The position numbers and the translations under genes were made by a program. This document shows positions 2,547-18,627 of a DNA stretch of 25,334 nt, one piece after another. The DNA is from a virus: IMG/VR virus record IMGVR_UViG_3300042368_000146, positions 1-25,334 of that record; one strand, written 5' to 3'. The notes beneath the pieces are model-generated. The model searched no databases and was not told the DNA's origin. It saw only the letters and a list, made by a program, of their open reading frames with translations. Within the stretch, counting starts at the first letter, position 1; every line of letters starts with the position of its first letter.

Positions 2547-4396
2547 AGTCAATCGAAGAAATCCTGGCTCTCTACAAGCAGCGCGTCGCCTTTTACGGGC
2601 CCCTGCACTCAAAGATGCGGCTTATCCAGTCGATCTACAATGGCACCGCTGAGATTCCGCTTCCCGATATGGAGCGGTCTGAGATGCCTTCCGTTCCTAA
2701 CCTGCTTGCGGCGGGTGTCGATCAAATGGCTGGACGTATCGCATCGGTAACACCGAACGTTATCTTTGCGGAGAAGACCCCGAACCGTACCGAGAAGCGC
2801 CGAGTGGGTACAGCGTCGCGGGTTGTCACGGGCTGGTGGCAGGAAGACCGCCTCATGATGAAGATGAAGCAGCGGTCCCGCCACCTCATCGCTTATGGCA
2901 TGAGCCCCGTGGTTATCCGCTGGAAGAAGGACCGTCCTACGTGGCATGTGCGCCACCCCCTTGAGACTTTCCCATCCACGGATATTGTTTCCGGTCAGGT
3001 CAAGCCCACCGATTGCATTTTCGCGTACCGTCGTTCTGTTGCTTGGCTCCGCTCAATGGGCTACGGGCAGCAAGTAGCGTCGGTTACAGGCAAGTGGGAT
3101 ATGTCCGACGACGCCTCAATGCTCCTTATCGAGTACATTGACGGCAACGGCACACAGTTGATCCTCACTTCCTACAGCGAGGGCAACGATATTGGCTCCA
3201 TGTGGGAGTCCAGCGGCAAGATGCGCGGCGTCATTCTCGAATACATCGACACTTCCGACATCGAAATGCCCGTTACGGTTCCTATGCGTCTCACTCTTGA
3301 TGGTGCGGCAGGCCAGTTCGACAACATGATCGGCATGTACTTCATGCAGGCCCGCCTTATGGCGCTAGAGACGATTGCCGTGGAGAAGGGAATCTTCCCT
3401 GACACCTACATTGTGTCTCGCCCCGGCGAGATCGGGCGCATTATCGACGGCCCCCACGACGGACGCACCGGCCTTATCAACATTATTTCCGGTGGCGACA
3501 TCCGCACAGAGCAGCCGCAGCCCGGCTATCTAACTAATCCGACGATTGACCGGATTGAGCGGAACCAGCGCGTGACTGCGGGCATCCCAGCAGAGTTTGG
3601 TGGCGAGTCTTCTACCAATATTCGTACGGGTCGCCGTGGCGACGCTGTTCTTTCAGCGGTTATTGACTTCCCCGTGGCTGAGGCGCAGGAAACTTTCTCG
3701 TTTGCTCTTGAGGAAGAGAACGAGATCGCTATTGAAATGGCGAAGAAGTTTGCTGGCGATAAGACCACAACTATTTACGTGGGTACAGGTAACGCTACTA
3801 AGGCTGTGACCTACACTCCGAATCAGGTTTTCCCTGATGTTGAGCATGTGGTTTCGTATCCGGCAGCCGGAACTGACGTAAACAGCCTCCTTATCGGTTT
3901 GGGGCAGCGCATCGGCCTGGGCATTATGTCTAAGGAAACCGCTGCGTCGCTTGATCCGTTTATTGACAACCCTGAGGTTGAGCACGACCGGATCATTGCC
4001 GAGGGCTTGGAGCAGGCGCTTGTGGCGTCTATCCAGCAGCAGGCAGCGGGTGGACAGATTCCTCCGCTGGTGCTGGCTAAGGTGATGTCAATGGTCAAGA
4101 GCGACCGTATGGAGATTGCTGAGGCTATCCAGAAGGTTACTGAGGATGCGGCTGAGGAGCAGCGTCGGGCCGAGGAAGAGGCCATGATGGAACAGCAGGG
4201 CGGTATGGGCATGGAGCAGGCTCTTGCTGGTGCCACGATGGGTTCCATGATGGGTCCTGAGGCAGCGGCTCAGATGCAGTCTCCAATTCCTGGCGCTGGT
4301 CAAGGCATGGAAGACCTTGGTTCTTTGCTGGGGGCGTTGCGCCGCCCGGCTATGACTGTTGCTCCCATGCGTGGAGTTGAGAGGGGTGCTGTGTAA
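2543..4396 (+). CDS. Portal protein
   Basis: The portal forms the dodecameric ring at the head vertex through which DNA passes and to which the tail attaches. The start is taken as ATG 2543 rather than the in-frame ATG 30 bases upstream, because GAGGA (2533-2537) lies 5 nt before it and it overlaps the terminase stop as ATGA. The 617-residue length fits portals of short-tailed phages. Visible portal-like features are the conserved early segment SVPNLLAAGVDQMAGRI, a charged helical region around KMKQRSRHLIAYG, the central part with RNQRVTAGIPAEFGG, and a long helical stem region (AEAQETFSFALEEENEIA). The C-terminal ~120 residues are Glu/Gln/Met/Ala-rich with MMEQQGGMGM, probably a flexible crown or barrel end. 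Assignment comes from sequence pattern and position after terminase. Confidence 0.85.
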   Translation: MKSIEEILALYKQRVAFYGPLHSKMRLIQSIYNGTAEIPLPDMERSEMPSVPNLLAAGVDQMAGRIASVTPNVIFAEKTPNRTEKRRVGTASRVVTGWWQEDRLMMKMKQRSRHLIAYGMSPVVIRWKKDRPTWHVRHPLETFPSTDIVSGQVKPTDCIFAYRRSVAWLRSMGYGQQVASVTGKWDMSDDASMLLIEYIDGNGTQLILTSYSEGNDIGSMWESSGKMRGVILEYIDTSDIEMPVTVPMRLTLDGAAGQFDNMIGMYFMQARLMALETIAVEKGIFPDTYIVSRPGEIGRIIDGPHDGRTGLINIISGGDIRTEQPQPGYLTNPTIDRIERNQRVTAGIPAEFGGESSTNIRTGRRGDAVLSAVIDFPVAEAQETFSFALEEENEIAIEMAKKFAGDKTTTIYVGTGNATKAVTYTPNQVFPDVEHVVSYPAAGTDVNSLLIGLGQRIGLGIMSKETAASLDPFIDNPEVEHDRIIAEGLEQALVASIQQQAAGGQIPPLVLAKVMSMVKSDRMEIAEAIQKVTEDAAEEQRRAEEEAMMEQQGGMGMEQALAGATMGSMMGPEAAAQMQSPIPGAGQGMEDLGSLLGALRRPAMTVAPMRGVERGAV

Positions 4397-4767
4397 TGCC
4401 GCGTGGTGGTGAGCGTCGAGGTACGCAGGGTAAGGGTTATTCAAACCGTACTGATCTTGCGGTGGATTATGCGCCTGGTGGCAATCCTGCTACGGGTGGT
4501 TTGGCAGCGCCAGCGCAGCAGCAACCGATTATGGGTCCTGCTATTGGTGCGGATCAGGTTCCTAATCTGGGTGATCCGACGATGCGCGCAAGCGAGCCTG
4601 TAACTGCAGGTCTTGATATTGGTCCTGGCGCTGGTTCTGAGGCTATGGGGCCGATGCCGCCGCCGCCGATGGACCCTATCCGTCAGGTTCTTCAGGCTAT
4701 GCTTCTTCAGGGTGGCAATCCTGATGTTGTTCGTCTTCTTAACCGGCTTGATTACGAAGGACGTTAA
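4396..4767 (+). CDS. Short Pro/Gly/Met-rich protein of unknown function
   Basis: A 123-residue protein whose ATG shares an A with the portal stop (TAATG); GAGAGGGG at 4379-4386 is its ribosome site. The N-terminus is basic (MPRGGERRGTQGKGYSNR). The middle is low in complexity (Ala, Gln, Pro, Gly, with PPPPM), and the last ~25 residues form a probable helix (IRQVLQAMLLQGGNPDVVRLLNRLDYEGR). The disordered body with a short C-terminal helix resembles small linker or head proteins located between portal and internal proteins, but I do not recognise a family. Its stop overlaps the next start (TAATG), so it is translated together with the giant gene that follows. Confidence 0.75.
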   Translation: MPRGGERRGTQGKGYSNRTDLAVDYAPGGNPATGGLAAPAQQQPIMGPAIGADQVPNLGDPTMRASEPVTAGLDIGPGAGSEAMGPMPPPPMDPIRQVLQAMLLQGGNPDVVRLLNRLDYEGR

Positions 4768-7700
4768 TGAGTCAGCAGCCGTATGAATGGCAGGACTGGT
4801 CGCAGGTACGTTTCCCTCCTCCGTATGAGGAGCCGTCAACTGCGAGTGCGCCTAGTCGTGATTTGCGTAGCACTTCCGTTGCGGATATCAATGTGCGCGA
4901 ATACAGCAAAACAAGTCGTCCGCTTATTATGCGCGCAAAGATGTGGGACGACAACGGGTATTACATTAACGGTCCTACGTTTCAGCCGTGGAATCATGCC
5001 AAAACACAGATGGATGCCATTCGCGCTATTACTGCGTCGTGGAATGATCCAACTCGCCGCGCTGCGGTTGACACGTTTCAGACCTATGTGAGCCGTTATG
5101 GTCACACGAATTCTCCTGGCGTGCTTTGGGGTATTGCACAGTTGGGTATTGATCCAGAGTCAGACGTTGTTAAGCAGATTCTTCAGAGTGACGCTGATGA
5201 AGTTCAGCGAGAGAATCGTCAGAGCCAGCCAATGCGTGCTGGCTCGCCTGTAGCAAACGAGGATGTTGAAGAAGCGGCTAGCCTGTGGGAGCCACTTCAG
5301 TTTATTTCTCGTAACGCTTTTTCTGTGCTTTCGTCGGGCATGGAGGCTGTGCAGGGCAGCATGAGGATGATTGGTGGTGCTGTCGCTAATGATGATATGA
5401 CTGCGGCTGAACGTGCTGGTCAAATTCTTGGCGCTACGGCCGGTTTGTTTGCTGGTCCGCTGACTGGTGCGATTGTTGCTGAGGGCGAGGATGAACCTGA
5501 CAATCCGTTTGGTAATCCTTGGTCACAGACTGATTTTGGTCAGACTCTTGCTCTTGCGCGCGAGATCGGTTTTGACGCATTTACTTCTGGTCAGGCAGGG
5601 CTTGATATTCGGCGCGCAGATCAGGAACTAGCGGAACTTGATCCTAATTTTCAGAATCTTACGCCTGATGAGCGTACCGCTATGGCTGAAGCGTACGCAC
5701 AAGAGAACGAGTATTACTCGCAGCCTGGTTGGTTTGTTGACGAAACGAGTATTGTTGGTGAGCGTCAGCGACGCCGCACGTTTAACACGTGGGCCATTCC
5801 TGGTCCCGATAATGAAATGACTGCCTGGACAATTGGGCGCGGCATTGCATCAGCAACGGTAGGCGCAGATAGCGAAGCCTACGGAACGATGTCGGGAGCG
5901 ATTGACGCTGTTGCCGCAATTGTTACTGACCCTCTTACTTATCTTCCGGCTGTCGGTTTGCCGTCTAAGGCTCTATCCGCTGTTACAGGCGGGGTGTGGA
6001 AAATTGGTAAGGCTGGGGATGAATGGCGTGCTGTTCTCCGACGCATGAATGAGGTCGGTCAGGAAGCGCAGCGACTTAACGCCGCTGGGGATCAAACCGC
6101 TGCCCGACAAATCGCAGTTGAAGGTTTGACTGAGTATTTGGGGCGTCCACCTACGGCGCGTGAAGTTGCTGATGTTGTTGACGGTATTGTTTTCAACGTT
6201 GACCCTACTGATCTTAAGAATATGGGGATTGACGAAGTAGCGGAAATGACTCGCGCTGCGCGTGAAGTTGATCTGACTAGCCAGCAACTTGACGCCGCTA
6301 AGCCTGATACTGAGGCCGCATACACTTATGTACGGACTGCGCGACGCGAAATTCTTGAAGGCGAATCAACGCAGCGGTTTATTGATAGTAATGTGAAGTC
6401 TACTGGCGGCACCAGCCAGGTTGCTCCGCTTGCTGATATTTGGGATGACTTTGTTGCGTTTGGTCAGCAGAACCCGAATGTTAAGCCGAGTGATTACATG
6501 GCGCAGCGATTTGGGCTTAGCCCCGAAACTGGACTACCGGCAGAAAACGCAGCGGATAGTTACTACCAGTTTCTTGAAGTGTTCGATATGTACCGAACAT
6601 TTGCCGCTGGACGTAAGGCTCCTCTTAGCCGTTCCGTAGATGATTTTGCTGTTGTTTTGCGTGACGCCGCTAGTGACACTCGTAGCGTTAAGCAAGCAAA
6701 AGATATTGACCAGACTAAGTTGGATTCTGACGCGGTTGCGCTTATGGTGCGGCCCGAAGCAGATAGGCAATTGGAAGAACTTGAAAGCCTTAATCTACAC
6801 GGTGTTGTTGTAGACGGTGTTCCTTCCGCTGATGCTGGTGTACTTGGAGCGTATGGACCTGACGGTGGGGTGTTTTATTTCTCTGGGTCGGCTCGCAGCA
6901 AACTAAACATTGCTGATGGTCAGGAAGTTATCCCGCCTAAGGTTCGCGAGGCCGTTGTCAATAGGCTGATGCAAGTCGCAGAACGTGACGATATGCGGCT
7001 TACTGAAGACATTATTGACATTGATTTCGACACGATTCCAGGCCAGGTGTATCGCCAGATTTCAGCGGCTACAGATGCCCGCGGTTTTATGAACGAGTTG
7101 TTTAGTGATGAAACACTTACTTACAATGGTCTATTGAAGGCTGCCGCGCTTGTTGGTTTTGATGCTGTCCTTGATGACATTATGCGTACGGCTATTAAGA
7201 AGAACCGTATTGACGGTATTACAAATGTTGATGGTGTACCTGGGCGTACATGGCTGGGCAATAACCCAAACGTAAATGGTTACGGCATTTCACCTGATGT
7301 GAGAGAGTCTATTGGACAGGTACGAGGGATGCCTGACCCGGTTACCGCGCTTGATGAAATTGGTATCGGGGCGCGCACTACTGCTCCGCTTGGATACCGC
7401 AGTTTGACACCGTTTGACCTAGACGTTCAGCGCATTGGTAAGTACGAGTCCGGTATGAACAACCGCGACCTGCTGAGTCAGTTCCGTAGCGACGCGATTT
7501 TTAATGGCTACCGCCGCCAGGAAGAACTTAAGACACAGATTGATTCTCTAAACGCTGAGTGGACTGATCCGGTAGCGAAGTTTAAGAGTGTTGTTGGTTG
7601 GCACTCTGGTATGCGGCACCACCCCGTAAACGGTTTTACAACCGACGAGCGTGGCGTACGAGCGTTTCTGTTCGGCATGGGGCCAATGTCTGCTCTCGGT

Positions 7701-10700
7701 AATCGTGCTCTTGGTGTGCTTGGTGATTTTGTCCCTCAGGATGCGCGCGCTGCTGCGATTGCTGCGCGGGATAAGGCTGCGACTCTTGGGCGCAATAATC
7801 CCGAGTATGCACCTCTTATGAAGGAATACACCAATCTTGTCGATGACGCTATTGGTGAATTGATCCTTGTTACAGGTAGCAAGTGGTCGGCTGATTTGTA
7901 CCGCGAGGTTGCAGAGAACGCAATCAACGGTGGCGGCAAGTCTGGTCTTATTGACATTTTGGCCCCGCGTCTTGGTGTTGATATTAGCGAGGGCGATATC
8001 TCTAAGACTATTGTGAGTAGGAATAAGGACGGCAAGACTTGGCTTAATTCACGGCGTACTGTTATGCCTAAGGTGCACCGCATGTTGGGCCAGATGCCTA
8101 CTGCGCGTAAAGTTAATTTGCAGGACGCACGCGATGTTGTCGATAACGCAATTCTTTATGGTCGCTATGCCGGTGTTGACGAAAAGGAAATTCGTAGTCG
8201 TATCGGCGCTGTTATGCGAACTAGCGGCACAGTAGAAGAAGGCCTTGTTGCTCGTAACGCGCTGAAGGAAATTCTTGATCTATCGGCGGTAAAGATGATT
8301 GAGAATATCGAGGCGTCTGGCGTTACTAAGGTGCTATTCCGTGGAGAAGCCGGTCAGCGCCGTAAAAAGGAAATTATCAACGCGATTAAGGACTCTACTG
8401 CGCTTTACATCGGCGGTAAGTACAAGGCGCGTGACGGTGACATAAACGAGGCTGTTGCTCTTGGCGCAGACATCCGTAAGTTTGTTACTGCAAGCGGCAA
8501 CGAGTACATCATGCCGAATCCGAAGTTGGATGCTGAACTAGCGGACGGATTTGTTGGTCTTCCTGGCGTTGAAGAGTGGGGCGCTGGCCTGCGTAGAATT
8601 ACGCTTGCGCTGGATCGTTTGCCAATGGTCGGTAATACGGCAGATGCGGCGCTTCAGTTCTACAACAATTTCTTCCGTACATCACTACTTGTGTTCCGTG
8701 GAGCGTACGTTATTCGCAACCTTGCAGAAATGCAGGTCCGCATGTTCCTTAACGGACACGAAAGCATTTTTAACAGTCCCGCAACTATCCTTGCTATGAC
8801 TGTTGGCGATGAGTGGTGGTCACGCAAGGTCGCTAAGTACGCCACTAAGCGCGAGGAAGCGGTTACTACTCTCCGCGCTCAGTTGAATCGGGACCCGCTA
8901 GATGATGAGATTGAGGCGCTTGCTGGGCCTGCTCCTAAGATGCCGTCAATGCTTGCCTCGTTTGACAAGTACAAGAACACCGTTCTTGACACTAGTTTTA
9001 ATACTGGGATGGATGCGGAACTAGCAGCGGCTAACCGTGTGACAGATTTCTGGGGTCTTCTCCGTGAGTCCCATTCTTTGACTGATCCGCGCGTGTATTC
9101 GTCCGGTATCCGTCAAGGCTGGGATGCGGTGGAGTACGGTAGCCAAAACTTCACTAAAGGCTGGGCTAATGAACTAATTATGTTGCAGCGGTCTGAGGTT
9201 GTTCGCTTGGTTGTTGGCAAGCCAGATCAGCAGCAGTTCGCCAGCCTTACCAACGGAACCGCTGGCATGGATGTCCAGAAGTCAATCGCCAATGACCTTA
9301 TGTACTCTAATAAGTACGAAGGTTTGCGGCGTCGGCTTATTGCTGCCGATGAAGAGTATGGGCGTATTCTTCAGGACGAAGAGGCTGTACTGGAGTACCT
9401 ATTCCGCAACCCCAATAGCATTTTTAACAAGGTGCTTCTCTACACGAACAATGATCCGCGCCTGGTGAACTTCATTGCTAGCGGCAAGTTGTCGTACGCG
9501 GATGGTGGGGTGCTATCCCCGAATAGTTTTACCGATGTACGCAAGCGTATTTCTGCTTTCCGCGCTGTACTTGACGACCATTTCTCAGGTGACGACTGGG
9601 CTAACCATTTCCGTGCTGCTAATGGTGGGATGGGTGCCCGTGTTCCATTTATTGAGACAATGGATTCGGGACAAGGGAACGCACTTGTTAATCGGTTCTT
9701 TGAGATTTCGGCAAAGATTGAGCGGCTCGGAGCGGTAGGCCCAGAGTTCCGTATGGCCTACTGGGATCGAATCGCTGACCTGGCTCCCAGCCTGCGGGGT
9801 AAGGACGTTGATCGTGCGCTGAAGGCTGCGGAAACAACTCTTGGTCCTATCCAGAACGCTGTAGGCAAAAAGATTGGGCGCACACATAAGGCGTGGGGCG
9901 CGCTAAACAAGTCCAAGGAAAACGGCACAGAGGGCTTTATGACTCTGAACGAACTCCATGAGGCAGCGATGAAGTATGCTGCCGACGAGGTTGCTGGACT
10001 GTTTTACGATGCTGCTCGCCGTAACAATCTTTGGTACGCGCTACGGGTTGCAATTCCGTTTGGTCAAGCGTGGGGCAATACGCTAACGCAATGGACTAAG
10101 TTGGGCGCTAAGAGGCCGCTGAACATTTACAAGGCGCAGAAGTTGTTTAACGCGCTTCAGGAAGAGCAGTCAAACGCTATTTACGAGGCTGGGCAGCAGT
10201 TTGGCCCGTTGAGTGCTTACGGCAAGTACGAGCCTGGGTACGCTCCGTGGGAGCGAGATTCGCAGGGTGGCTTCTTCTACACCGACGATTTTGGTGACAC
10301 GGTGTTTGAGGTTCCCTTTGCCGGGCGCGCGCTAGGCATGGGCGCCAACGTTCTTGCCAGAATGAATGGTGTGGATGCTGGACCGCTGCTTGAGGCTAAT
10401 GCGTCGGTGCAGTCTCCTGTCACTTCGCTTAACCTAGCCCTTGGTGGCGATAGTGTTTTGCCTGGATTTGGTCCAGCGGTTGCTTTCCCGCTGGGTGCGG
10501 ACATTGTTCCTGATAACAAGATGACTGGGTGGTTGCGTCAACAGGTCGCTCCGTTTGGCGATAAGCAGATTCTTGAGAGTGGTACTCCTGCGTGGTTGCA
10601 GAAGGTCGTTGGTGGCGTTCAGGCCATTCCTGTTGTGGGTGGTGTGGCTTCGTCGTGGACTAGTTCGTTGTATCCGGCGATGAAGAACCGCAACATCAAT

Positions 10701-11666
10701 GACGCTATGGCTATTTTGTCAACTACTGGAAACTATCCAGATTTGATGACTAATCCTGTTACTGCTCGCCGGTTTAAGGAAGATGCTGAGGAATTGGCAG
10801 CAGCGACGATGCTAATGACAGGCATGATGCAGAATGTTATGCCTAGTACGCCGCTTCCTGAGGGTGCTGTTCGGTTCCCTGTGGGTGAGGGTGAGGAGCA
10901 GACTACTGCTCAGTACACGCTCGGCTTGGTGAATTCGCTGTTCCAGCAGTATCAAGTTAATAACATGGGCGATCGTACGGCAGCGGTTGAGGAAATGATT
11001 AAGGACCTTGGCCCTTATGCTGCTTTTGCTCTTGTGGGTAACTGGGCGGGTTACACGCGGCTTCCCACATCGCAGGCTCTTGATTGGGCTTATGACAATC
11101 CTGAGATCGCGGCGGCAAACATTGACTTGTTTACGATGTTTTTCCCGCAGGGCGATTCGTCTGATGTTCGGGCTCGCCGCTGGCTGAGGGATCACACGTT
11201 TGGTGAGCAGCAGCGCAAGAATCCTGATGAGGCGTTTGCGGAAGCGGTTGGGTTCCTTAGCGGAACTCAGTTGGCTCGTATTAGCAGTATGGAAAACGCT
11301 GGCGAAATGTCAGCGGACCAGGCTGCTGACGCTAGGGATGCGGTGCGTAAGCAGTATTTGGCTGTTGATGATCCTGCTGGCACGTTCCTTGACCGCACGA
11401 TGGAACTTGAGCAGATTAACGATTTTGTTAACAGATACGGTGAGATTCAGCAGAGTCAGGCTGGCAAGGCATTTATGATTGCCTGGAGCCTTCGAGAGAA
11501 GGCTTTGCTTCATACTCGCGCATGGACTGGCGATGAGGACGCTGGGCTTGGTTCTGAAAAGGCCACCCCAGTAAGGAACGAATATTTCCGACAGTTGGAT
11601 ACTCTTATTCAGCAGTATCCTGACTTTAAAATTCTTGGGAACCGTCTTCGTAAGGAATGGGAGTAA
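4767..11666 (+). CDS. Giant virion-associated protein, probable internal/ejection protein
   Basis: The 2299-residue product takes up 27% of the window. It starts at ATG 4767 with GAAGGA at 4757-4762. There is no signal peptide and no recognisable polymerase, protease or lysozyme motif. Hydrophobic stretches near residues 220-240 (ATAGLFAGPLTGAIVA), 375-410 (AIDAVAAIVTDPLTYLPAVG), 1300-1325 (FFRTSLLVFRGAYVIRNL) and 1950-1970 (AIPVVGGVASSW) may insert in membranes. Around 1740-1790 is a segment DAARRNNLWYALRVAIPFG followed by a Trp-rich stretch, which I have seen in very large phage structural proteins. The rest is mostly helical and charged. Very long, helical, weakly hydrophobic virion proteins in short-tailed phages are usually stored in the head and ejected to form a conduit (T7 gp15/gp16 role). 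That role is inferred from size, composition and neighbours; a virion RNA polymerase was considered but its motifs were not seen. Confidence 0.7.
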   Translation: MSQQPYEWQDWSQVRFPPPYEEPSTASAPSRDLRSTSVADINVREYSKTSRPLIMRAKMWDDNGYYINGPTFQPWNHAKTQMDAIRAITASWNDPTRRAAVDTFQTYVSRYGHTNSPGVLWGIAQLGIDPESDVVKQILQSDADEVQRENRQSQPMRAGSPVANEDVEEAASLWEPLQFISRNAFSVLSSGMEAVQGSMRMIGGAVANDDMTAAERAGQILGATAGLFAGPLTGAIVAEGEDEPDNPFGNPWSQTDFGQTLALAREIGFDAFTSGQAGLDIRRADQELAELDPNFQNLTPDERTAMAEAYAQENEYYSQPGWFVDETSIVGERQRRRTFNTWAIPGPDNEMTAWTIGRGIASATVGADSEAYGTMSGAIDAVAAIVTDPLTYLPAVGLPSKALSAVTGGVWKIGKAGDEWRAVLRRMNEVGQEAQRLNAAGDQTAARQIAVEGLTEYLGRPPTAREVADVVDGIVFNVDPTDLKNMGIDEVAEMTRAAREVDLTSQQLDAAKPDTEAAYTYVRTARREILEGESTQRFIDSNVKSTGGTSQVAPLADIWDDFVAFGQQNPNVKPSDYMAQRFGLSPETGLPAENAADSYYQFLEVFDMYRTFAAGRKAPLSRSVDDFAVVLRDAASDTRSVKQAKDIDQTKLDSDAVALMVRPEADRQLEELESLNLHGVVVDGVPSADAGVLGAYGPDGGVFYFSGSARSKLNIADGQEVIPPKVREAVVNRLMQVAERDDMRLTEDIIDIDFDTIPGQVYRQISAATDARGFMNELFSDETLTYNGLLKAAALVGFDAVLDDIMRTAIKKNRIDGITNVDGVPGRTWLGNNPNVNGYGISPDVRESIGQVRGMPDPVTALDEIGIGARTTAPLGYRSLTPFDLDVQRIGKYESGMNNRDLLSQFRSDAIFNGYRRQEELKTQIDSLNAEWTDPVAKFKSVVGWHSGMRHHPVNGFTTDERGVRAFLFGMGPMSALGNRALGVLGDFVPQDARAAAIAARDKAATLGRNNPEYAPLMKEYTNLVDDAIGELILVTGSKWSADLYREVAENAINGGGKSGLIDILAPRLGVDISEGDISKTIVSRNKDGKTWLNSRRTVMPKVHRMLGQMPTARKVNLQDARDVVDNAILYGRYAGVDEKEIRSRIGAVMRTSGTVEEGLVARNALKEILDLSAVKMIENIEASGVTKVLFRGEAGQRRKKEIINAIKDSTALYIGGKYKARDGDINEAVALGADIRKFVTASGNEYIMPNPKLDAELADGFVGLPGVEEWGAGLRRITLALDRLPMVGNTADAALQFYNNFFRTSLLVFRGAYVIRNLAEMQVRMFLNGHESIFNSPATILAMTVGDEWWSRKVAKYATKREEAVTTLRAQLNRDPLDDEIEALAGPAPKMPSMLASFDKYKNTVLDTSFNTGMDAELAAANRVTDFWGLLRESHSLTDPRVYSSGIRQGWDAVEYGSQNFTKGWANELIMLQRSEVVRLVVGKPDQQQFASLTNGTAGMDVQKSIANDLMYSNKYEGLRRRLIAADEEYGRILQDEEAVLEYLFRNPNSIFNKVLLYTNNDPRLVNFIASGKLSYADGGVLSPNSFTDVRKRISAFRAVLDDHFSGDDWANHFRAANGGMGARVPFIETMDSGQGNALVNRFFEISAKIERLGAVGPEFRMAYWDRIADLAPSLRGKDVDRALKAAETTLGPIQNAVGKKIGRTHKAWGALNKSKENGTEGFMTLNELHEAAMKYAADEVAGLFYDAARRNNLWYALRVAIPFGQAWGNTLTQWTKLGAKRPLNIYKAQKLFNALQEEQSNAIYEAGQQFGPLSAYGKYEPGYAPWERDSQGGFFYTDDFGDTVFEVPFAGRALGMGANVLARMNGVDAGPLLEANASVQSPVTSLNLALGGDSVLPGFGPAVAFPLGADIVPDNKMTGWLRQQVAPFGDKQILESGTPAWLQKVVGGVQAIPVVGGVASSWTSSLYPAMKNRNINDAMAILSTTGNYPDLMTNPVTARRFKEDAEELAAATMLMTGMMQNVMPSTPLPEGAVRFPVGEGEEQTTAQYTLGLVNSLFQQYQVNNMGDRTAAVEEMIKDLGPYAAFALVGNWAGYTRLPTSQALDWAYDNPEIAAANIDLFTMFFPQGDSSDVRARRWLRDHTFGEQQRKNPDEAFAEAVGFLSGTQLARISSMENAGEMSADQAADARDAVRKQYLAVDDPAGTFLDRTMELEQINDFVNRYGEIQQSQAGKAFMIAWSLREKALLHTRAWTGDEDAGLGSEKATPVRNEYFRQLDTLIQQYPDFKILGNRLRKEWE

Positions 11667-13411: not shown

Positions 13412-14574
13412 TGGCTAAGACACCGACATCTAAGTGGAATCCTGACGGTATCGACTACAACAAGGATAAGCAGGTCGATGCTAACGATGACATGTTTGCC
13501 GTTAAGGACTATGACGGTGACGGCAAGGTTAGCCAGAAAGAAGAAGAGCGCTTTATTAAGGAGCGCGACGAAACTAATACTGAGTACAAATACAACGCTA
13601 AGGGCGAACTTGTTGAGAGTAAGGTAACTGGTAGCGGGAAGGAAGTTCCCGAACCAAGCCTTAGTTTCAGCCAATATACCGAGAAGTTTCTCGCCAATAA
13701 GCCTGAGGTTCGCAGGGCTATTCAACTTGCTATTAAGTACAAGTGGAGCCAAGATCAGTTCAATAACTACATCGAAGCGGAAACCGCTTGGGGTAAAAGC
13801 ACTACGGATACTCAGGCCGCGTTTGATCTTCAGATTAAGGGCAACAAGAGCGAGGAACTAACCGATCCGACAACGGGAAAGATTCCTGTTACTCGTAAGC
13901 GGATTGCTGATCTTGCTACTTCTATGGGTGTCACTATTGCTGACGCTAATCTTGAGAAGTACGCGAAGACCGTTGTTCGTAGCGGTCTTGACGACGAAAC
14001 TGTGCGCGCTTGGATTGCGGGTCAATTCAGTATGGCTCCCCCGGCAGGCGCAACGGGGCCGACGCTTCCTGGCGAGCCTGGAGCCCCGGCTGCTCCCGCA
14101 CAAACAATTCAAGGAACTGCGTCTGAGATTAGTGATGCTATTAAGCGGTTGGCTCGCTCTTACGGTGTGACTATTACTCCCGAAACTTTGCAGACAAAAA
14201 TTCAGGAGGGTTTGCGTCAAGGCCCAAACTGGACTTCATGGGTTGAGGGACAGCGCAACATTTTCCGGCAGTCCGCTAAGACGATGTACGCGACGGTAGC
14301 GGACAAGTTGGATGAGTACACGCTTGAGGATCTAGTGGACCCGTATCTTGAGGATGCCGCTAATTTGCTGGGCGTGCCTAGAATAAATATGGATTTGTCT
14401 AACCCAATGTGGACTAAGGCATTGTCTGGTGCTGATGGTAAGCCAATGACCCGTGAGGAATGGATGCGTACTTTGCGTATGGACAAGCAGTACGGCTGGA
14501 ACAATACCCAGCGGGCTAAAACCGAAATGGTCGAACTTGGTGATGAACTTCTAGCAGCGTTTGGAATGGCATAA
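13411..14574 (+). CDS. Virion-associated protein with two EF-hand loops
   Basis: A 387-residue product; ATG overlaps the previous stop (TAATG), with TTGGAG just upstream. Near the N-terminus are two calcium-binding loops: D15-N17-D19-Q21-D23-D26 (less canonical) and D33-D35-D37-G38-K39-V40-S41-E44 (canonical DxDxDGKVSxxE). They are 18 residues apart, like dockerin-type or bacterial EF-hand pairs. The middle and C-terminal parts contain an internal duplication: IADLATSMGVTIADANLEK and IKRLARSYGVTITPETLQT, each followed by a Trp-containing stretch. The C-terminus is helical (KTEMVELGDELLAAFG). Calcium binding would be structural, perhaps stabilising the particle or sensing the change in calcium on entry. 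It sits in the block of probable internal proteins; no known family is claimed. Confidence 0.7.
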   Translation: MAKTPTSKWNPDGIDYNKDKQVDANDDMFAVKDYDGDGKVSQKEEERFIKERDETNTEYKYNAKGELVESKVTGSGKEVPEPSLSFSQYTEKFLANKPEVRRAIQLAIKYKWSQDQFNNYIEAETAWGKSTTDTQAAFDLQIKGNKSEELTDPTTGKIPVTRKRIADLATSMGVTIADANLEKYAKTVVRSGLDDETVRAWIAGQFSMAPPAGATGPTLPGEPGAPAAPAQTIQGTASEISDAIKRLARSYGVTITPETLQTKIQEGLRQGPNWTSWVEGQRNIFRQSAKTMYATVADKLDEYTLEDLVDPYLEDAANLLGVPRINMDLSNPMWTKALSGADGKPMTREEWMRTLRMDKQYGWNNTQRAKTEMVELGDELLAAFGMA

Positions 14575-15719
14575 TGGCAACTCCTCCTCGCGGCAATTCA
14601 TCTGGTGCTACAAGTGGTGGGCCAAATCGTGGTTCTGGTGGCGGCGGTCGTGGCGGTGGCGGCGGCGGCGGTCGCGGTGGTGGCAAAACTCCTCCTCGCG
14701 ATCCTCAGCCTGGTTTTTACTGGGTAAAAACTCCAGGCGGGCAATGGAGAGAAAGGTCAGTCGATCCTGGCCCAACTGGGCCGAGCGGCCCCACGGGAAC
14801 TACTGGTCCTACGGGAACTACCGGAAGTACCGGAAGCACCGGGTCAACTGGTCCTGCCCCTGAATACACGCCTATTGTTACCGGCGCGACAGAGTACATG
14901 GAAGCACTTTTGGCTTCTGCGGTTGGTGTCGCTGGTCTTGGTAATTGGGCTGCGAACCTTTACATGCAGGGCGCTTCTCCAAACGAAATTATTCAGGCTC
15001 TTAGGTATGGGATGGATCAGAGCCCCGAAGGTCAGGCAGCGCACCAGAAGTATTTGGCTGCTTTTCCTGGCATGGATGAGTTCATTAAGGATGGAACATT
15101 CTCAGGTGAGGCTCCTGAAATGCAGTACATCGCGTATCGGAACGCGGTGAAGGAGGCTGGGGCACGCTATGGGGTCAATGTTGATCTGACCAGTCCCACA
15201 AAGATTTATACTTACTTGAAGAATAATGTTTCTGCTGCTGAAATTGCGGATCGCATGAGTACCGCTGCTAGCGCAGTAGCCACAACACCCGTAGAAACAC
15301 TCACCCTACTTAACGAATACTACGGAGTAGGTAGCAGCGATCTCATTAGTTTCTTCCTAGATACGGATGAGACAGAGGCAATGCTTCAGAAGCGGTACAC
15401 CGCTGCGCGCATCGGCACCGAGGCTGTCCGAAATCAATTTGGCGTCAATGCTACCGAAGCAGAAGCCCTAGCCACCCGTGGGATCGGCGTGGGCGAAGCA
15501 GCCCAAGGATTCCAGGCCGCAGCCCAGCGTCGCTCCTTCATGGGAGGCGCAGGCGAAACGGCATCCCGAGAGCAACTTATCGGGGCATCTTTCGGTGATG
15601 TAGAGGCTGAACAGGCGATTGCCCGTATCGGTGGCTCTCGCGCAGGACGATTCGCTGAGGGTGGCGGGTTTGCTGCTGGGCAAGAAGGCGTAGGCGGGCT
15701 AGGTTCAGCGACACGCTGA
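14574..15719 (+). CDS. Minor virion protein with RGG and collagen-like N-terminus
   Basis: A 381-residue product starting at an ATG that overlaps the previous stop (TAATG). Residues 1-45 are Gly/Arg/Ser-rich with GGGGRGGGG-type repeats (RGG-like, likely disordered and nucleic-acid friendly). Residues 48-58 (FYWVKTPGGQW) form a short aromatic patch. Residues 65-93 are nine or ten Gly-X-Y triplets of collagen type (GPTGPSGPTGTTG...). The remainder is a helical domain of about 280 residues with KNNVSAAEIADRM and a Gly-rich C-terminal tail (FAEGGGFAAG). It is the last gene of the large-protein block before the non-coding gap and the capsid genes. Its codon use shifts to C-ending codons at about 15270. 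The function is unknown; it is probably an internal or linker component of the virion. Confidence 0.7.
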   Translation: MATPPRGNSSGATSGGPNRGSGGGGRGGGGGGGRGGGKTPPRDPQPGFYWVKTPGGQWRERSVDPGPTGPSGPTGTTGPTGTTGSTGSTGSTGPAPEYTPIVTGATEYMEALLASAVGVAGLGNWAANLYMQGASPNEIIQALRYGMDQSPEGQAAHQKYLAAFPGMDEFIKDGTFSGEAPEMQYIAYRNAVKEAGARYGVNVDLTSPTKIYTYLKNNVSAAEIADRMSTAASAVATTPVETLTLLNEYYGVGSSDLISFFLDTDETEAMLQKRYTAARIGTEAVRNQFGVNATEAEALATRGIGVGEAAQGFQAAAQRRSFMGGAGETASREQLIGASFGDVEAEQAIARIGGSRAGRFAEGGGFAAGQEGVGGLGSATR

Positions 15720-15727
15720 CCCGGCTA

Positions 15728-15755
15728 TTGCATAACTGAATATTGGATGTAGTAT
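15728..15755 (+). promoter_or_regulatory. Possible sigma70-type promoter for the capsid genes
   Basis: TTGCAT at 15728-15733 and TAGTAT at 15750-15755 are separated by 16 bp and lie at the start of the only sizeable gap in the late region, before scaffold and capsid genes. Each hexamer matches consensus only partly (3 of 6 and 4 of 6), so this is a weak call. The same TAGTATnnGG word occurs at 403-412, just before the first gene of the window. Confidence 0.35.
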
Positions 15756-15898
15756 TTGGAGTGAGCCAAACGTTGGCCCCCTGAAAAGGGGCGTGCTAAC
15801 CGGCTCAGGTGCCGGGCTAGGCATTGACCGTCCTATGCCTGAGTAATAAGGGTCACTCATTTAACCATGCTCCGAAAGCCATGCTCCCGTGGTTTTCG
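15755..15898 (+). ncRNA. Structured leader RNA upstream of scaffold and capsid genes
   Basis: Six hairpins follow one another: TTTGG/CCAAA (15755-15770), GCCCC/GGGGC (15776-15792), CCGGC/GCCGG (15800-15815), AGGCAT/ATGCCT (15819-15840), TGAGT/ACTCA (15840-15859), and an 11-bp stem with two G-U pairs and a CTCC loop (15873-15898). In addition CTCAGG (15804-15809) in the third hairpin is complementary to CCTGAG (15838-15843), giving an alternative pairing or pseudoknot. The last stem ends 14 nt before the ribosome site GGGAAGG (15913-15919) of the scaffold gene. No known riboswitch, ribozyme or tRNA signature was recognised. It could be a regulatory leader, a processing site or a stability element for the capsid message. 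Confidence 0.5.
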
Positions 15899-15921
15899 CG
15901 CTATAGCAGATTGGGAAGGCA

Positions 15922-16395
15922 ATGTCCGACAACTACACAGATGACGACTTCGATCTTGACGCTGACGACAGCAATAGCATCCAGAACCTTCGACGGGCCG
16001 CTAACGCTGCTAAGAAACTCAAGGCCGAAAACACCCGAATGAAGCGCGAACTTGCTTTTGCTAAGGCCGGGATTCCCCTCACAGACCCCAAGATGAATTA
16101 CTTTGTCAAGGGATACGAGGGCGAGTTGGAGCCCGATGCGATTCGTGAGGCAGCGACAGAGGCCGGGTTCCTTGCTGTAGAGGCCGCTCCCCAAGAGCAG
16201 GTTTCAGACGCTAACGCCGAGGCTGTGGCTTACGCCCAGCAGCGAGTAATGGCGGCATCAGCGGGAGCCACTTCAGAAGATATTTCTGAGGCTGCGGCGC
16301 TGGCTCGCATGGAATCCGCAATGCAAGAGGGTGGTCTGGAGGCAATGTTGGACGTTGCCCGACAGTACGGCATCCCCACTAACGCTGAATATTAG
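15922..16395 (+). CDS. Probable scaffolding protein
   Basis: A 157-residue, acidic, mostly helical product encoded directly before the major capsid gene, the usual place for the scaffold that guides prohead assembly and then leaves. The N-terminus is Asp-rich (NYTDDDFDLDADDS), followed by a charged helix (LRRAANAAKKLKAENTRMKR), a conserved-looking core (FAKAGIPLTDPKMNYFVKGY) and an Ala/Glu/Gln-rich C-terminal half. ATG 15922 has GGGAAGG two bases upstream of the GC spacer. Its stop TAG overlaps the capsid gene's ribosome site. No separate maturation protease gene is seen in the window. Confidence 0.75.
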   Translation: MSDNYTDDDFDLDADDSNSIQNLRRAANAAKKLKAENTRMKRELAFAKAGIPLTDPKMNYFVKGYEGELEPDAIREAATEAGFLAVEAAPQEQVSDANAEAVAYAQQRVMAASAGATSEDISEAAALARMESAMQEGGLEAMLDVARQYGIPTNAEY

Positions 16396-16406: not shown

Positions 16407-17450
16407 ATGCCAGCAGGCACCGGCACCCCCGGTTCTAACCAGAACGGCCCTCTCGCAGCGCCGTCTTTTTCCCCCGGCGAGATTGTTACCGCTGCGGGTC
16501 CGCTGAGCAACAACGCTCCGGCCCCCGTCGTTGACATCACCCTGGGCTCGCAGTTCGTTACCAAGGCGTACGACCTTGCGATTTACCCGGCCCTCCGTCC
16601 CGAACTTATCTTTGACCAGTTCGCTACGGTTCGCGCCACCCGCCTTACGCACCGTGGCGCTAGCGTCCGGTTCTCATTCGTTGACGACATCAGCGAGCAG
16701 GTCACCCCGCTCCTTGAGAACATCGACGTTGACAGCGTGACCCTTTCCAGCAAGGCTCTCTCGGTCCCGATGGACGAGTTTGGTACTGCTGTCACCACCA
16801 CGGCTCTGCTCCGTGGCACTTCGATGATCCCGGTGGACCCGCTGGTCGCTGAGCGCGTCGGCTACAACGCCGGTATCTCGGTTGACACGCTGGCTCGTCA
16901 GGCTCTTGATGTCGCGTCCATCACTTACGATGACGCTTCCACGGCGACCATCACGGAGATCGGTTCCTCTAGCGACTTCCTCAACTCTTGGCTCATTCAG
17001 GAGGCTGTCGCTAATCTTCAGTCGAACAACGTCCGTCCCTTCCGTGGCGGTCAGTACGTCGCTGTTGTGTCGCCGTACCAGGCCCAGCACCTCAAGTCCG
17101 ATACCACGGACACGGGCTGGCGCTACACGGTGTCCCGCAACGAGGGCGCCGCTGGCAACAGCATCTTCATGGGCGAGATCGGCACCTACGAGGGTGTCCG
17201 CATCATTGTCAACAACCACCTCACCAGCACGGGCATGGCTTACGTCATGGGTGCCGAGGCGCTGTCGAAGGTTTACTCCGACGCTCCTGGTTTCGGCCCG
17301 AACCCGCGCGTGGTCGTGTCGCCGGTTGTGGATAAACTGCGCCGTTTCGCCTCTATCGGCTGGTACCACCTGGTCGGGTACTCGGTGTTCCGTGCGGATG
17401 CTCTTGTTCGCATTGAGACTGATCCGGGCCTCCAGCCCCCGCCCGCCTAA
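16407..17450 (+). CDS. Major capsid protein, N4-gp56 family type
   Basis: A 347-residue product that forms the HK97-fold shell. Recognisable family features are AYDLAIYPALRPELIFDQFA near 54-73, the RGASVRFSFVDD strand, VDEFGTAV-like E-loop sequence (PMDEFGTAVTTTALLRGTS), IPVDPLVAERVGYNA, and the C-terminal GWYHLVGYSVFRADALVRIE. TAGGAG at 16393-16398, overlapping the scaffold stop, is the ribosome site. Codon use is strikingly C-ending (GTC, ATC, CTC, TTC, GAC) compared with the T-ending neighbours 4767-15200, as expected for the most highly expressed gene. The gene is followed after 10 bases by a strong hairpin. Confidence 0.92.
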   Translation: MPAGTGTPGSNQNGPLAAPSFSPGEIVTAAGPLSNNAPAPVVDITLGSQFVTKAYDLAIYPALRPELIFDQFATVRATRLTHRGASVRFSFVDDISEQVTPLLENIDVDSVTLSSKALSVPMDEFGTAVTTTALLRGTSMIPVDPLVAERVGYNAGISVDTLARQALDVASITYDDASTATITEIGSSSDFLNSWLIQEAVANLQSNNVRPFRGGQYVAVVSPYQAQHLKSDTTDTGWRYTVSRNEGAAGNSIFMGEIGTYEGVRIIVNNHLTSTGMAYVMGAEALSKVYSDAPGFGPNPRVVVSPVVDKLRRFASIGWYHLVGYSVFRADALVRIETDPGLQPPPA

Positions 17451-17460
17451 GACGGACTGA

Positions 17461-17494
17461 GAGGGAGGGGCCTGCACTAGCGGGCTCCTCCCTC
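17461..17494 (+). terminator. 15-bp hairpin after the capsid gene (attenuator or mRNA stabiliser)
   Basis: Arms 17461-17475 and 17480-17494 pair along their whole length (15 bp, two of them G-U) around an ACTA loop. There is no T-run afterwards: the next bases are ACAGGGGAG, the ribosome site of the following small gene. It is therefore not a classical intrinsic terminator. It may be a partial terminator or a 3' stem protecting the capsid mRNA and lowering expression of genes beyond it. Confidence 0.6.
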
Positions 17495-17509
17495 ACAGGG
17501 GAGTGACTG

Positions 17510-17656
17510 ATGAACAAGGTGAAGAAGGTCATGGGAGAGTACAAGCGTGGCACTCTCCACTCCGGTTCCAAGAAGGGGCCGAAGGTTAAGTCTCGTAAGC
17601 AAGCGGTCGCTATTGCTTTGAGTGAGCAGCGGCGCGTGAAGAAGCGGAGCAAGTAG
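17510..17656 (+). CDS. Small basic protein, DUF6496-like
   Basis: A 48-residue product, strongly basic. The segment KVMGEYKRGTLHSGSKKGP followed by VKSRKQAVAIALSEQRR matches the pattern I know as DUF6496, a short family common in phages and bacteria without a defined function. The start ATG 17510 follows AGGGGAG (17497-17503) directly after the capsid hairpin. The C-terminus is KKRSK, and its final 17 bases are repeated at the end of the next gene. It is first in a cassette of tiny basic proteins next to the capsid gene, which suggests abundant, possibly virion-packaged DNA-binding proteins; that role is inferred. Confidence 0.8.
   Translation: MNKVKKVMGEYKRGTLHSGSKKGPKVKSRKQAVAIALSEQRRVKKRSK
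17639..17655 (+). repeat. 17-bp direct repeat, copy 1 (copy 2 at 17912-17928)
   Basis: The sequence AAGAAGCGGAGCAAGTA occurs identically at 17639-17655 and 17912-17928, 273 bp apart. It encodes the C-terminal KKRSK plus the start of the stop codon in two successive genes, so the copies bracket exactly one gene unit. This spacing would allow gain or loss of that gene by homologous recombination. Confidence 0.7.
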
Positions 17657-17929
17657 ATGCCAGCGAAGGGTCCCGGTTACGGGAGCAGTGGTCGCATGAG
17701 TGGTGGCGCTGGTCGCCACGCCAAGCCGTCTGGCGCTTCTCGCGTTAAGACTGGTATGAGTAAGGTTCGGAAGACTAAGGGCACTTCTAACTACGGCAGC
17801 GTCGATAAGAGTGGCATGTTTCGTGGTTGGGGTTCTGCTTCTCGCGCTGGTGCTGAGGGTCCGAAGAAGTCTTCTGGTAATCGTTTTGTTATGCCGTCTA
17901 CGACTAAGAAGAAGAAGCGGAGCAAGTAA
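17657..17929 (+). CDS. Small Lys/Gly/Ser-rich basic protein
   Basis: A 90-residue product that begins immediately after the previous stop. It is dominated by Lys, Arg, Gly and Ser, with almost no acidic residues, and ends in KKKKRSK. Short motifs GAEGPKK and KTKGTSNYGS recur in related form in the neighbouring small genes, suggesting duplication within the cassette. No hydrophobic core is visible, so it is probably disordered and nucleic-acid binding, protamine-like in composition. No family is recognised. Confidence 0.7.
   Translation: MPAKGPGYGSSGRMSGGAGRHAKPSGASRVKTGMSKVRKTKGTSNYGSVDKSGMFRGWGSASRAGAEGPKKSSGNRFVMPSTTKKKKRSK
17912..17928 (+). repeat. 17-bp direct repeat, copy 2
   Basis: This copy is identical to 17639-17655 and lies at the 3' end of the 90-residue basic gene, running into the TAATG junction with the next gene. 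Confidence 0.7.
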
Positions 17930-18099
17930 TGAAGTCTCAATCCACGGGCGGCACTAAGGGCAACGGCCCTAAGTGGAAGGGTCAGACAAGCGGCTCTTAC
18001 GGTCCCCAGTATGAGCGCACTACCGCCGTTACTCGCCGTAAGGCTGCTATGGCTAAGAAGTCTGCTACTGCCCCTAAGCGTGGATCGAAGAAGAAGTAA
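17929..18099 (+). CDS. Small basic protein (56 residues)
   Basis: Starts at ATG 17929 within a TAATG overlap and ends at TAA 18097-18099. The product begins MKSQSTGGTKGN, contains a KGQTSGSYG segment and ends KRGSKKK. It has about a quarter Lys/Arg and very few acidic residues. The N-terminus resembles that of the 18478-18627 protein (MKAQTKGNRATGSY), suggesting they are paralogues. No family is recognised; it belongs to the post-capsid basic cassette. Confidence 0.65.
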   Translation: MKSQSTGGTKGNGPKWKGQTSGSYGPQYERTTAVTRRKAAMAKKSATAPKRGSKKK

Positions 18100-18371
18100 T
18101 GCCTGCTAAGTCTGGTCGTGACCCCCGGCTCGCAAGGGCCGGGGTTAGCGGCTTCAACAAGCCGAAGCGTACGCCGTCGCATCCCACTAAGTCGCATGTT
18201 GTTGTGGCTAAAGAGGGTAGCCAGGTGAAGACGATTCGGTTTGGTCAGCAGGGTGTGACGGGTGACCGTCAGCCCACGAAGCGTCAGGCGTCGTTTAAGG
18301 CGCGTCACGCTAAGAACATCGCTAAGGGCAAAATGTCCGCAGCGTACTGGGCCAACAAGGTGAAGTGGTAG
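18099..18371 (+). CDS. Conserved phage basic protein with RHAKNI-GKMSAAYWA motif
   Basis: A 90-residue product, TAATG overlap at the start. The segments SHVVVAKEGSQVKTIRFGQQ and SFKARHAKNIAKGKMSAAYW followed by ANKVKW form a pattern I recall from many environmental and cyanobacterial phage small proteins of unknown function. Unlike the other basic proteins it has a probable folded core (strands VVVAKEG and VKTIRFG, then a helix ending in the aromatic YWANKVKW). The conserved Arg-His and Trp suggest a specific nucleic-acid or protein contact. The function is unknown. Confidence 0.75.
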   Translation: MPAKSGRDPRLARAGVSGFNKPKRTPSHPTKSHVVVAKEGSQVKTIRFGQQGVTGDRQPTKRQASFKARHAKNIAKGKMSAAYWANKVKW

Positions 18372-18373
18372 TC

Positions 18374-18481
18374 ATGTGCATGGCTTGTGGATGCGGTATC
18401 GCTAATGACAAAAAGTCCACGGTGATGATTGACGGCAAGGTCAAGGTCACCCACGATGGGATGAAAGAGGGCGGCAAGTGA
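18374..18481 (+). CDS. Tiny cysteine-rich protein (35 residues)
   Basis: The product starts MCMACGCG, three cysteines in a CxxCxC arrangement at the very N-terminus, followed by a short Lys/Gly-rich strand region (KSTVMIDGKVKVTHDG). This could bind a metal ion or be a redox centre. The ribosome site is weak, so it may rely on coupling to the gene before it, 2 bases upstream. The stop overlaps the next start. Short CxxCxC phage proteins next to capsid genes are known to me only as hypothetical. Confidence 0.6.
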   Translation: MCMACGCGIANDKKSTVMIDGKVKVTHDGMKEGGK

Positions 18482-18627
18482 AGGCTCAGACTAAGGGCAA
18501 CCGCGCTACGGGTTCGTACGCAAAGGCCAGCCGTAACAGCAAGGCGAGCGTTGTAATGATGCGCCCTAAGAAGGCTCAGAAGTCTGTTGCCCGTAAGGGC
18601 GCTGAAGGGCCGAAGCGGAAGAAGTAG
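18478..18627 (+). CDS. Small basic protein (49 residues)
   Basis: Uses GTG 18478, overlapping the previous stop (GTGA), with AGAGG at 18466-18470 and 7 nt spacing. The product begins MKAQTKGNRATGSY and ends GAEGPKRKK, with a Lys/Arg-rich body. Its two ends resemble the 56-residue protein (start) and the 90-residue protein at 17657 (GAEGPKK). It is the last of the basic cassette; the next gene starts on its stop (TAGTG). Confidence 0.65.
   Translation: MKAQTKGNRATGSYAKASRNSKASVVMMRPKKAQKSVARKGAEGPKRKK

Follow-up and report, generated by a model that had tools for sequence, protein, structure and literature searches.

What fills the only large gap in the late region of this phage, directly ahead of its capsid genes? 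The window analyzed here, a virus record of 25,334 bases, encodes terminase, portal and major capsid proteins. As the earlier note had stated, its late region has no other large gap, apparent later gaps being filled by small open reading frames (ORFs). The gap spans 202 bases (15720–15921; the leader elements and the two genes that follow are on the plus strand) between the stop of the upstream ORF at 15719 and the start codon AUG (15922–15924) of a gene encoding 157 amino acids (15922–16395). This start, which agrees across relatives, is preceded by the Shine-Dalgarno (SD) sequence GGGAAGG from 15913. The gene lies directly before the major capsid protein gene (16407–17450; phrog_1357, major head protein, 1.5e-39; Pfam Phage_capsid_3), which starts 11 nt past its stop codon. 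Its product falls into phrog_7813, listed in PHROGs as of unknown function, and a profile search of solved structures returned only weak coiled-coil-like matches. AlphaFold2 predicts, at moderate confidence (pLDDT 74), an all-helical protein, as would be expected of a scaffolding protein, and the model is silent for or against RNA binding; in Streptomyces phage Dennebes, the gene at the equivalent place bears the annotation scaffolding protein. From position, the Dennebes annotation and the predicted helical fold, we infer that the 157-residue product is the scaffolding protein. Between the portal and scaffold genes, a 2299-residue ORF (4767–11666) has no Pfam or PHROGs match, and a search for tRNA and tmRNA genes found none in the window.

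For comparative analysis of the gap, relatives were collected by their capsid and scaffold proteins. Capsid comparisons in IMG/VR gave 23 relatives at 72–85% identity, then two more at 64–65%, and one further relative was found in an Actinomycetales MAG contig. Scaffold alignments extended the set by hundreds, with the 80 best of each scan being used; more than 570 such scaffold leaders are present in IMG/VR. Extraction of the sequence upstream of each scaffold start yielded 164 distinct leaders (113 and 51). In the closest relatives the leader motifs are readily recognized by eye, and they are found again in freshwater and marine clades that are more distant. The final hairpin, P5, located directly before the scaffold ribosome site, is kept in 159 of the 164 leaders; the hairpins P2 and P3 and the pseudoknot formed by the P3 loop are additionally kept in the closest relatives of the window, and the minimal members of the family consist of P5 alone. 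Among isolate phages we found no direct DNA or scaffold-protein relatives, only distant capsid relatives. These include isolate Streptomyces phages with capsids 36–44% identical, which have a similar arrangement with the hairpin loop UUCCCUAG and the SD CUAGGAG. In Streptomyces phages of the Beephvirinae (leaders L155, L157, L358–L362 and L364), tRNA genes lie directly upstream of the scaffold leader. The scaffold start of phage Immanuel3 is annotated inside the leader hairpin, and this annotation is probably wrong.

The P5 hairpin (15872–15900) is composed of a 5' CC (15872–15873), a helix (15874–15881 with 15890–15897), the loop UGCUCCCG (15882–15889) and the 3' flank G-C-G (15898–15900), in which C15899 is bulged. 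The helix extends to 11 bp (15873–15883 with 15888–15898) and is the final stem recognized in the earlier note. Its pairing probability in the fold model of the window is 1.00, and its covariation is 3.65 compared with 0.58 for the null, a value that none of 500 nulls reached. CC before the hairpin and G-N-G after it form the commonest flank signature, which occurs in 159 of 164 leaders (97%) versus 4% of shuffles; N is U in 99 leaders, C in 49 and A in 11. In the marine CCACC clade (L324–L356), G-A mismatches seem to occur in tandem within the P5 helix (AUCC-GA-AGU/GCU-GA-GGAU).

The most informative pairing of the leader, which is absent from the earlier note, joins the P5 loop to the SD of the scaffold gene. 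In the window, UCCC (15885–15888) pairs with GGGA (15913–15916), forming what we call pseudoknot 2 (15885–15916). The helix, which is 4 bp here and mostly 4–5 bp elsewhere, is weak on its own. Its two strands vary jointly across lineages, and the best loop/SD runs include CTCC/GGAG (49 leaders), CACC/GGTG (25), TCCC/GGGA (23), CTCCC/GGGAG (8), CCCTT/AAGGG (4) and CTCCA/TGGAG (3), as well as CTCG/CGAG and CCCC/GGGG. CUCC/GGAG is found in most leaders, CACC/GGUG in a marine clade and UCCC/GGGA in the group of the window. A test in which the loop and SD classes were swapped gave p 1e-4; a cruder version with automatic loop calls gave a weaker result, and shuffling the loops in place discriminated poorly because they are short and C-rich. 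When loop and SD were anchored independently of each other, the middle pair across 157 leaders was U-A in 95, A-U in 26, C-G in 17 and U-G in 14. Its covariation of 0.37, against a null mean of 0.04, was reached in 1 of 1000 tree nulls and reflects few lineage-level changes, on three shared branches, because most leaders are of the one type CUCC/GGAG. The pairs flanking it vary too little to add power. A gap-free scan of all columns was noisy, and its top-ranked pair was the expected middle loop:SD pair. Several P5 loops are not segments of the usual 16S tail, and the loop therefore appears to follow the SD rather than to copy the ribosome. In this pairing and covariation of a hairpin loop with the downstream SD, the leader agrees with operators of the SD-masking kind. 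The length of the P5 helix and that of the linker to the SD are not correlated (r -0.04).

The location of this element is specific. A pattern scan of IMG/VR for P5 plus SD, with the stem letters left free, gave at least 120 matches, of which 80 loci were kept. All 80 lie 6–9 nt before a start codon and have complementary stems throughout, and the ORFs that follow are scaffold homologues at 78 of them, the other two ORFs being truncated, to 35 and 12 amino acids, where the contig or locus ends. The window and five phage contigs of larger size were searched with a structural descriptor, which requires a CC-hairpin-GNG unit whose loop is complementary to sequence ahead of a start codon. It found one site in the 25-kb window, the leader itself, and the scaffold leader plus little else in four of the five larger contigs, compared with 0–1 matches in block shuffles. 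A loose CC..GNG..GGAG pattern was non-discriminating over whole records.

The upstream half of the leader was analyzed in 20 close relatives. The helices were segmented by hand, because the MAFFT alignment of the core (A4) misaligned P1 and P3, and each was checked against the sequences. As the null for covariation, the same substitutions were re-placed at random on the capsid tree in 500 replicates. The outer and inner helices of P2, P3a, pseudoknot 1 and P5 each exceeded all 500 of these phylogeny-aware nulls, which answers the suggestion of the earlier note to look for covariation among homologous leaders. P2 (15772–15800) consists of the outer helix GUUGGC/GCUAAC and the inner helix CCCCU/AGGGG, with a GAAA tetraloop (15783–15786) and a CGU bulge (15792–15794). 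A GNRA loop caps P2 in all 20 relatives, and the sequence signature of this hairpin is also found in the marine clade. A P2 pattern scan matched only contigs that had already been found, and a search of the window for another site resembling P2 gave 8 matches against 9.3 expected. P2 is enclosed by P1 (UGAGCC, 15762–15767, with GGCUCA, 15802–15807), for which the support is modest: a helix of at least 4 bp and of varied sequence is present in 20 of 20 relatives, and the mean run of 5.55 is a modest excess over the 4.54 of shuffles.

P3 (15812–15843) begins with CC (15812–15813), continues with a helix closed by the loop CAUUGACCGU (15822–15831) and ends with the GNG sequence G15841-A15842-G15843. 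The P3a pairs of the relatives are canonical in 60 of 60 cases and include C-G, G-C and U-A types. Pseudoknot 1 (15825–15855) forms between UGACC (15825–15829) of the P3 loop and GGUCA (15851–15855). Its types among the relatives are GGCC/GGCU, GACC/GGUC (as in the window), GGCG/CGCU and AGCC/GGCU, with the register of the downstream strand set by hand in a way that somewhat favours pairing. P3 bears the same CC/GNG signature as P5, and in the freshwater clade an upstream hairpin with this signature and a CCCC loop is found in 46 of 148 leaders, compared with 1% of shuffles, with a GGGGUG strand downstream of it. It looks as if a single H-type pseudoknot module were present twice, as P3 and as P5, with the second copy closing on the SD. 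The freshwater clade has extra pairs X1X2/Y2Y1 under P5 that covary (GC/GC in 44 leaders, GU/AC in 18, AC/GU in 15). With these pairs closed, the linker would be too short to bring the loop to the SD and, judging from this geometry, the extra-pair state and the loop:SD state are therefore probably mutually exclusive.

Promoter-like sites place the likely start of the transcript near the beginning of this structure. The window contains a weak match, TTGCAT (15728–15733) and TAGTAT (15750–15755) with a 16-nt spacer, and a promoter consensus scan returned none in the window itself. Stronger TTGACA/TATACT sites lie at the equivalent place in many relatives, and Sigma-70-like sites with a score of at least 9 are found just upstream of 26% of leaders versus 3% of shuffles. 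Transcription starting about 7 nt past TAGTAT would place the 5' end of the RNA at P1 (15762). A distance of 13 nt separates the end of the -10 box from P5 in some minimal members.

We consider it likely that the gap, in which helices, pseudoknot 1, loop:SD covariation and, among the loci kept, placement before scaffold starts are established by sequence comparison, is a cis-acting 5' leader of the scaffold–capsid mRNA and that its SD-masking pseudoknot controls scaffold translation. In the model that we propose, the leader would combine the P2 hairpin with two H-type pseudoknot modules of the form CC-[hairpin]-GNG, N being one bulged nucleotide; the loop of P3 in module 1 would pair with the strand just downstream, and that of P5 in module 2 with the scaffold SD. 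Because the P5 loop pairs with the SD, pseudoknot 2 would hide the ribosome site and keep scaffold translation low, and its opening would expose the SD. Loop:SD pairing is presumed to lower scaffold initiation, and a signal to relieve or enforce it. Translation of the capsid gene, with its start 11 nt past the scaffold stop, may be coupled to that of the scaffold gene. By analogy with P22, for which such control is reported, one may guess that the likeliest single trigger is free scaffolding protein repressing its own translation. More tentatively, and with considerable doubt, the tandem modules might represent a new and widespread class of phage regulatory RNA that measures free scaffolding protein and toggles access to the SD, one protein reading both modules; the RNA would then set the ratio of scaffold to coat during head assembly.

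Phage genes with high expression often have stabilizing hairpin leaders, and the chain of stable hairpins here begins at the probable transcription start. The leader might therefore mainly stabilize or insulate an abundant late mRNA, its 5' hairpins forming a barrier to RNases and the complementarity to the SD being incidental. We regard this as unlikely, as it leaves the joint change of loop and SD, and the conservation of the CC/GNG flanks and of the loop, unexplained. Less probable still is a metabolite-sensing riboswitch that uses the P5/SD pseudoknot as its expression platform. Occlusion of the SD by an H-type pseudoknot is a known mode of riboswitch expression, in preQ1 and others, and a conserved site could be provided by the CC/GNG bulge. 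However, the helices are hypervariable and surround no large conserved core, scaffold genes alone lie downstream among the loci kept, which would be odd for a metabolite signal, and no Rfam 15 covariance model matched at the gathering score in the window or in the loci of 21 relatives, a permissive search giving weak sub-threshold matches only. The earlier note, too, had recognized no riboswitch or ribozyme and had suggested an undescribed regulatory RNA.

The least probable readings concern transcription and an alternative fold. The put sites of HK022 are structured RNAs near a phage promoter that act on RNA polymerase and not on the SD. A promoter-proximal antitermination RNA of this kind, allowing the polymerase to read through the late operon, would fit a structured RNA that lies right after promoter-like sites and is followed by a long late operon. 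The resemblance to put consists of promoter proximity, with no defining put feature matched; the most conserved part of the leader goes together with the SD and the start codon, and minimal members have P5 alone rather than a tandem put-like pair, making this reading very improbable. We give equally little credence to the switch envisaged in the earlier note, in which CTCAGG (15804–15809) would alternate between its local stem and CCTGAG (15838–15843). The two strands are indeed perfect 6-bp complements and pair in the minimum-energy fold of the window, which has -64.8 kcal/mol compared with -46.9 for the conserved fold (calculated without pseudoknots), departs from the latter in the P1–P3 part and leaves P3a with a probability of 0.00. 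In the 20 relatives, however, this pairing is at chance level (mean best run 3.2 versus 3.5 in shuffles, with 2 of 20 reaching 5 bp), and the strands pair elsewhere, in P1 and P3a. The chain of six consecutive hairpins described in the earlier note does not correspond to the conserved build. The segment 15755–15898 does fold more stably than 200 of 200 dinucleotide shuffles (-59.3 versus -45.6 kcal/mol, z -3.5), but comparison gives P1, P2, P3 with its pseudoknot, and P5, and the functional unit continues past 15898 to the SD GGGA (15913–15916) and the start at 15922. The abundant compensatory changes and the conservation across many phages bear out the impression of a designed RNA leader.

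An operator that masks the SD by a pseudoknot is a known kind of element, whereas the family, the tandem build and the target gene are new as far as tested. In the E. coli rpsO (S15) operator and in SD-occluding riboswitches of the preQ1 type, an H-type pseudoknot arises at the ribosome site when the loop of a hairpin pairs with a strand downstream. Their sequence and context are unrelated to those of the leader analyzed here, which has two tandem modules and a last loop that tracks the SD across lineages. The control of the P22 scaffold is post-transcriptional, and we know of no defined RNA structure or RNA target for its autoregulation. The element described here likewise precedes a gene assigned a scaffolding role. 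Autoregulation of the P22 scaffolding protein, whose gene lies before the coat gene, goes back to Wyckoff and Casjens (1985 J Virol 53:192), as cited in PMC5744158. The operator of T4 gene 32 serves autogenous translational control and, like the leader here, is the 5' leader of a phage mRNA in which an H-type pseudoknot precedes the SD (PMC535899, PMC3014915). Its pseudoknot lies about 67 nt upstream of the start and nucleates cooperative binding of gp32, with no SD pairing (PMC535899, PMC3014915), and a 2010 review considered it possibly the sole viral pseudoknot in translational autoregulation (PMC3014915). In contrast to our leader, it belongs to the gene of a ssDNA-binding protein, has unstructured UUAAA repeats over the ribosome site and possesses neither CC/GNG modules nor tandem copies. 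A gene 32-type operator was rejected for the window, whose gap (15720–15921) has no run of UUAAA repeats, whose P5 loop has the SD itself as its partner and whose first gene past the gap precedes that of the capsid.

A literature search with limited coverage of subscription papers found no description of the scaffold leader, and two comparative RNA-discovery studies (PMC2864571, PMC8040213) leave capsid genes unmentioned. The comparative sequence data point to a real, conserved and apparently undescribed cis-regulatory RNA. They add a family absent from Rfam and, for the scaffold/coat feedback known in P22 since 1985, a defined, covarying RNA at that gene in a very large environmental phage group. 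With similar hairpin/SD pairing in culturable Streptomyces phages, the question of scaffold control becomes directly testable.

Several features were observed around the capsid genes. In the contig of leader L116, an ORF between the scaffold and capsid genes (3487–3933) reads, by eye, like an HNH-type homing endonuclease. Past the capsid gene of the window, tiny Lys/Arg-rich ORFs of 48, 90, 56, 90 and 49 amino acids follow in a row (17510–18627), the first being DUF6496 and the fourth phrog_7595. Just 3' of the capsid gene (17460–17520), a stable hairpin containing CUCCUCCCUC precedes the SD GGGGAG of the next ORF and might act as another SD mask or else as an attenuator. A post-capsid site in the contig of leader L010 (G001, 14360–14388) also passed the anti-SD hairpin descriptor, with the loop UUCCUCC and the SD AAGGAG.
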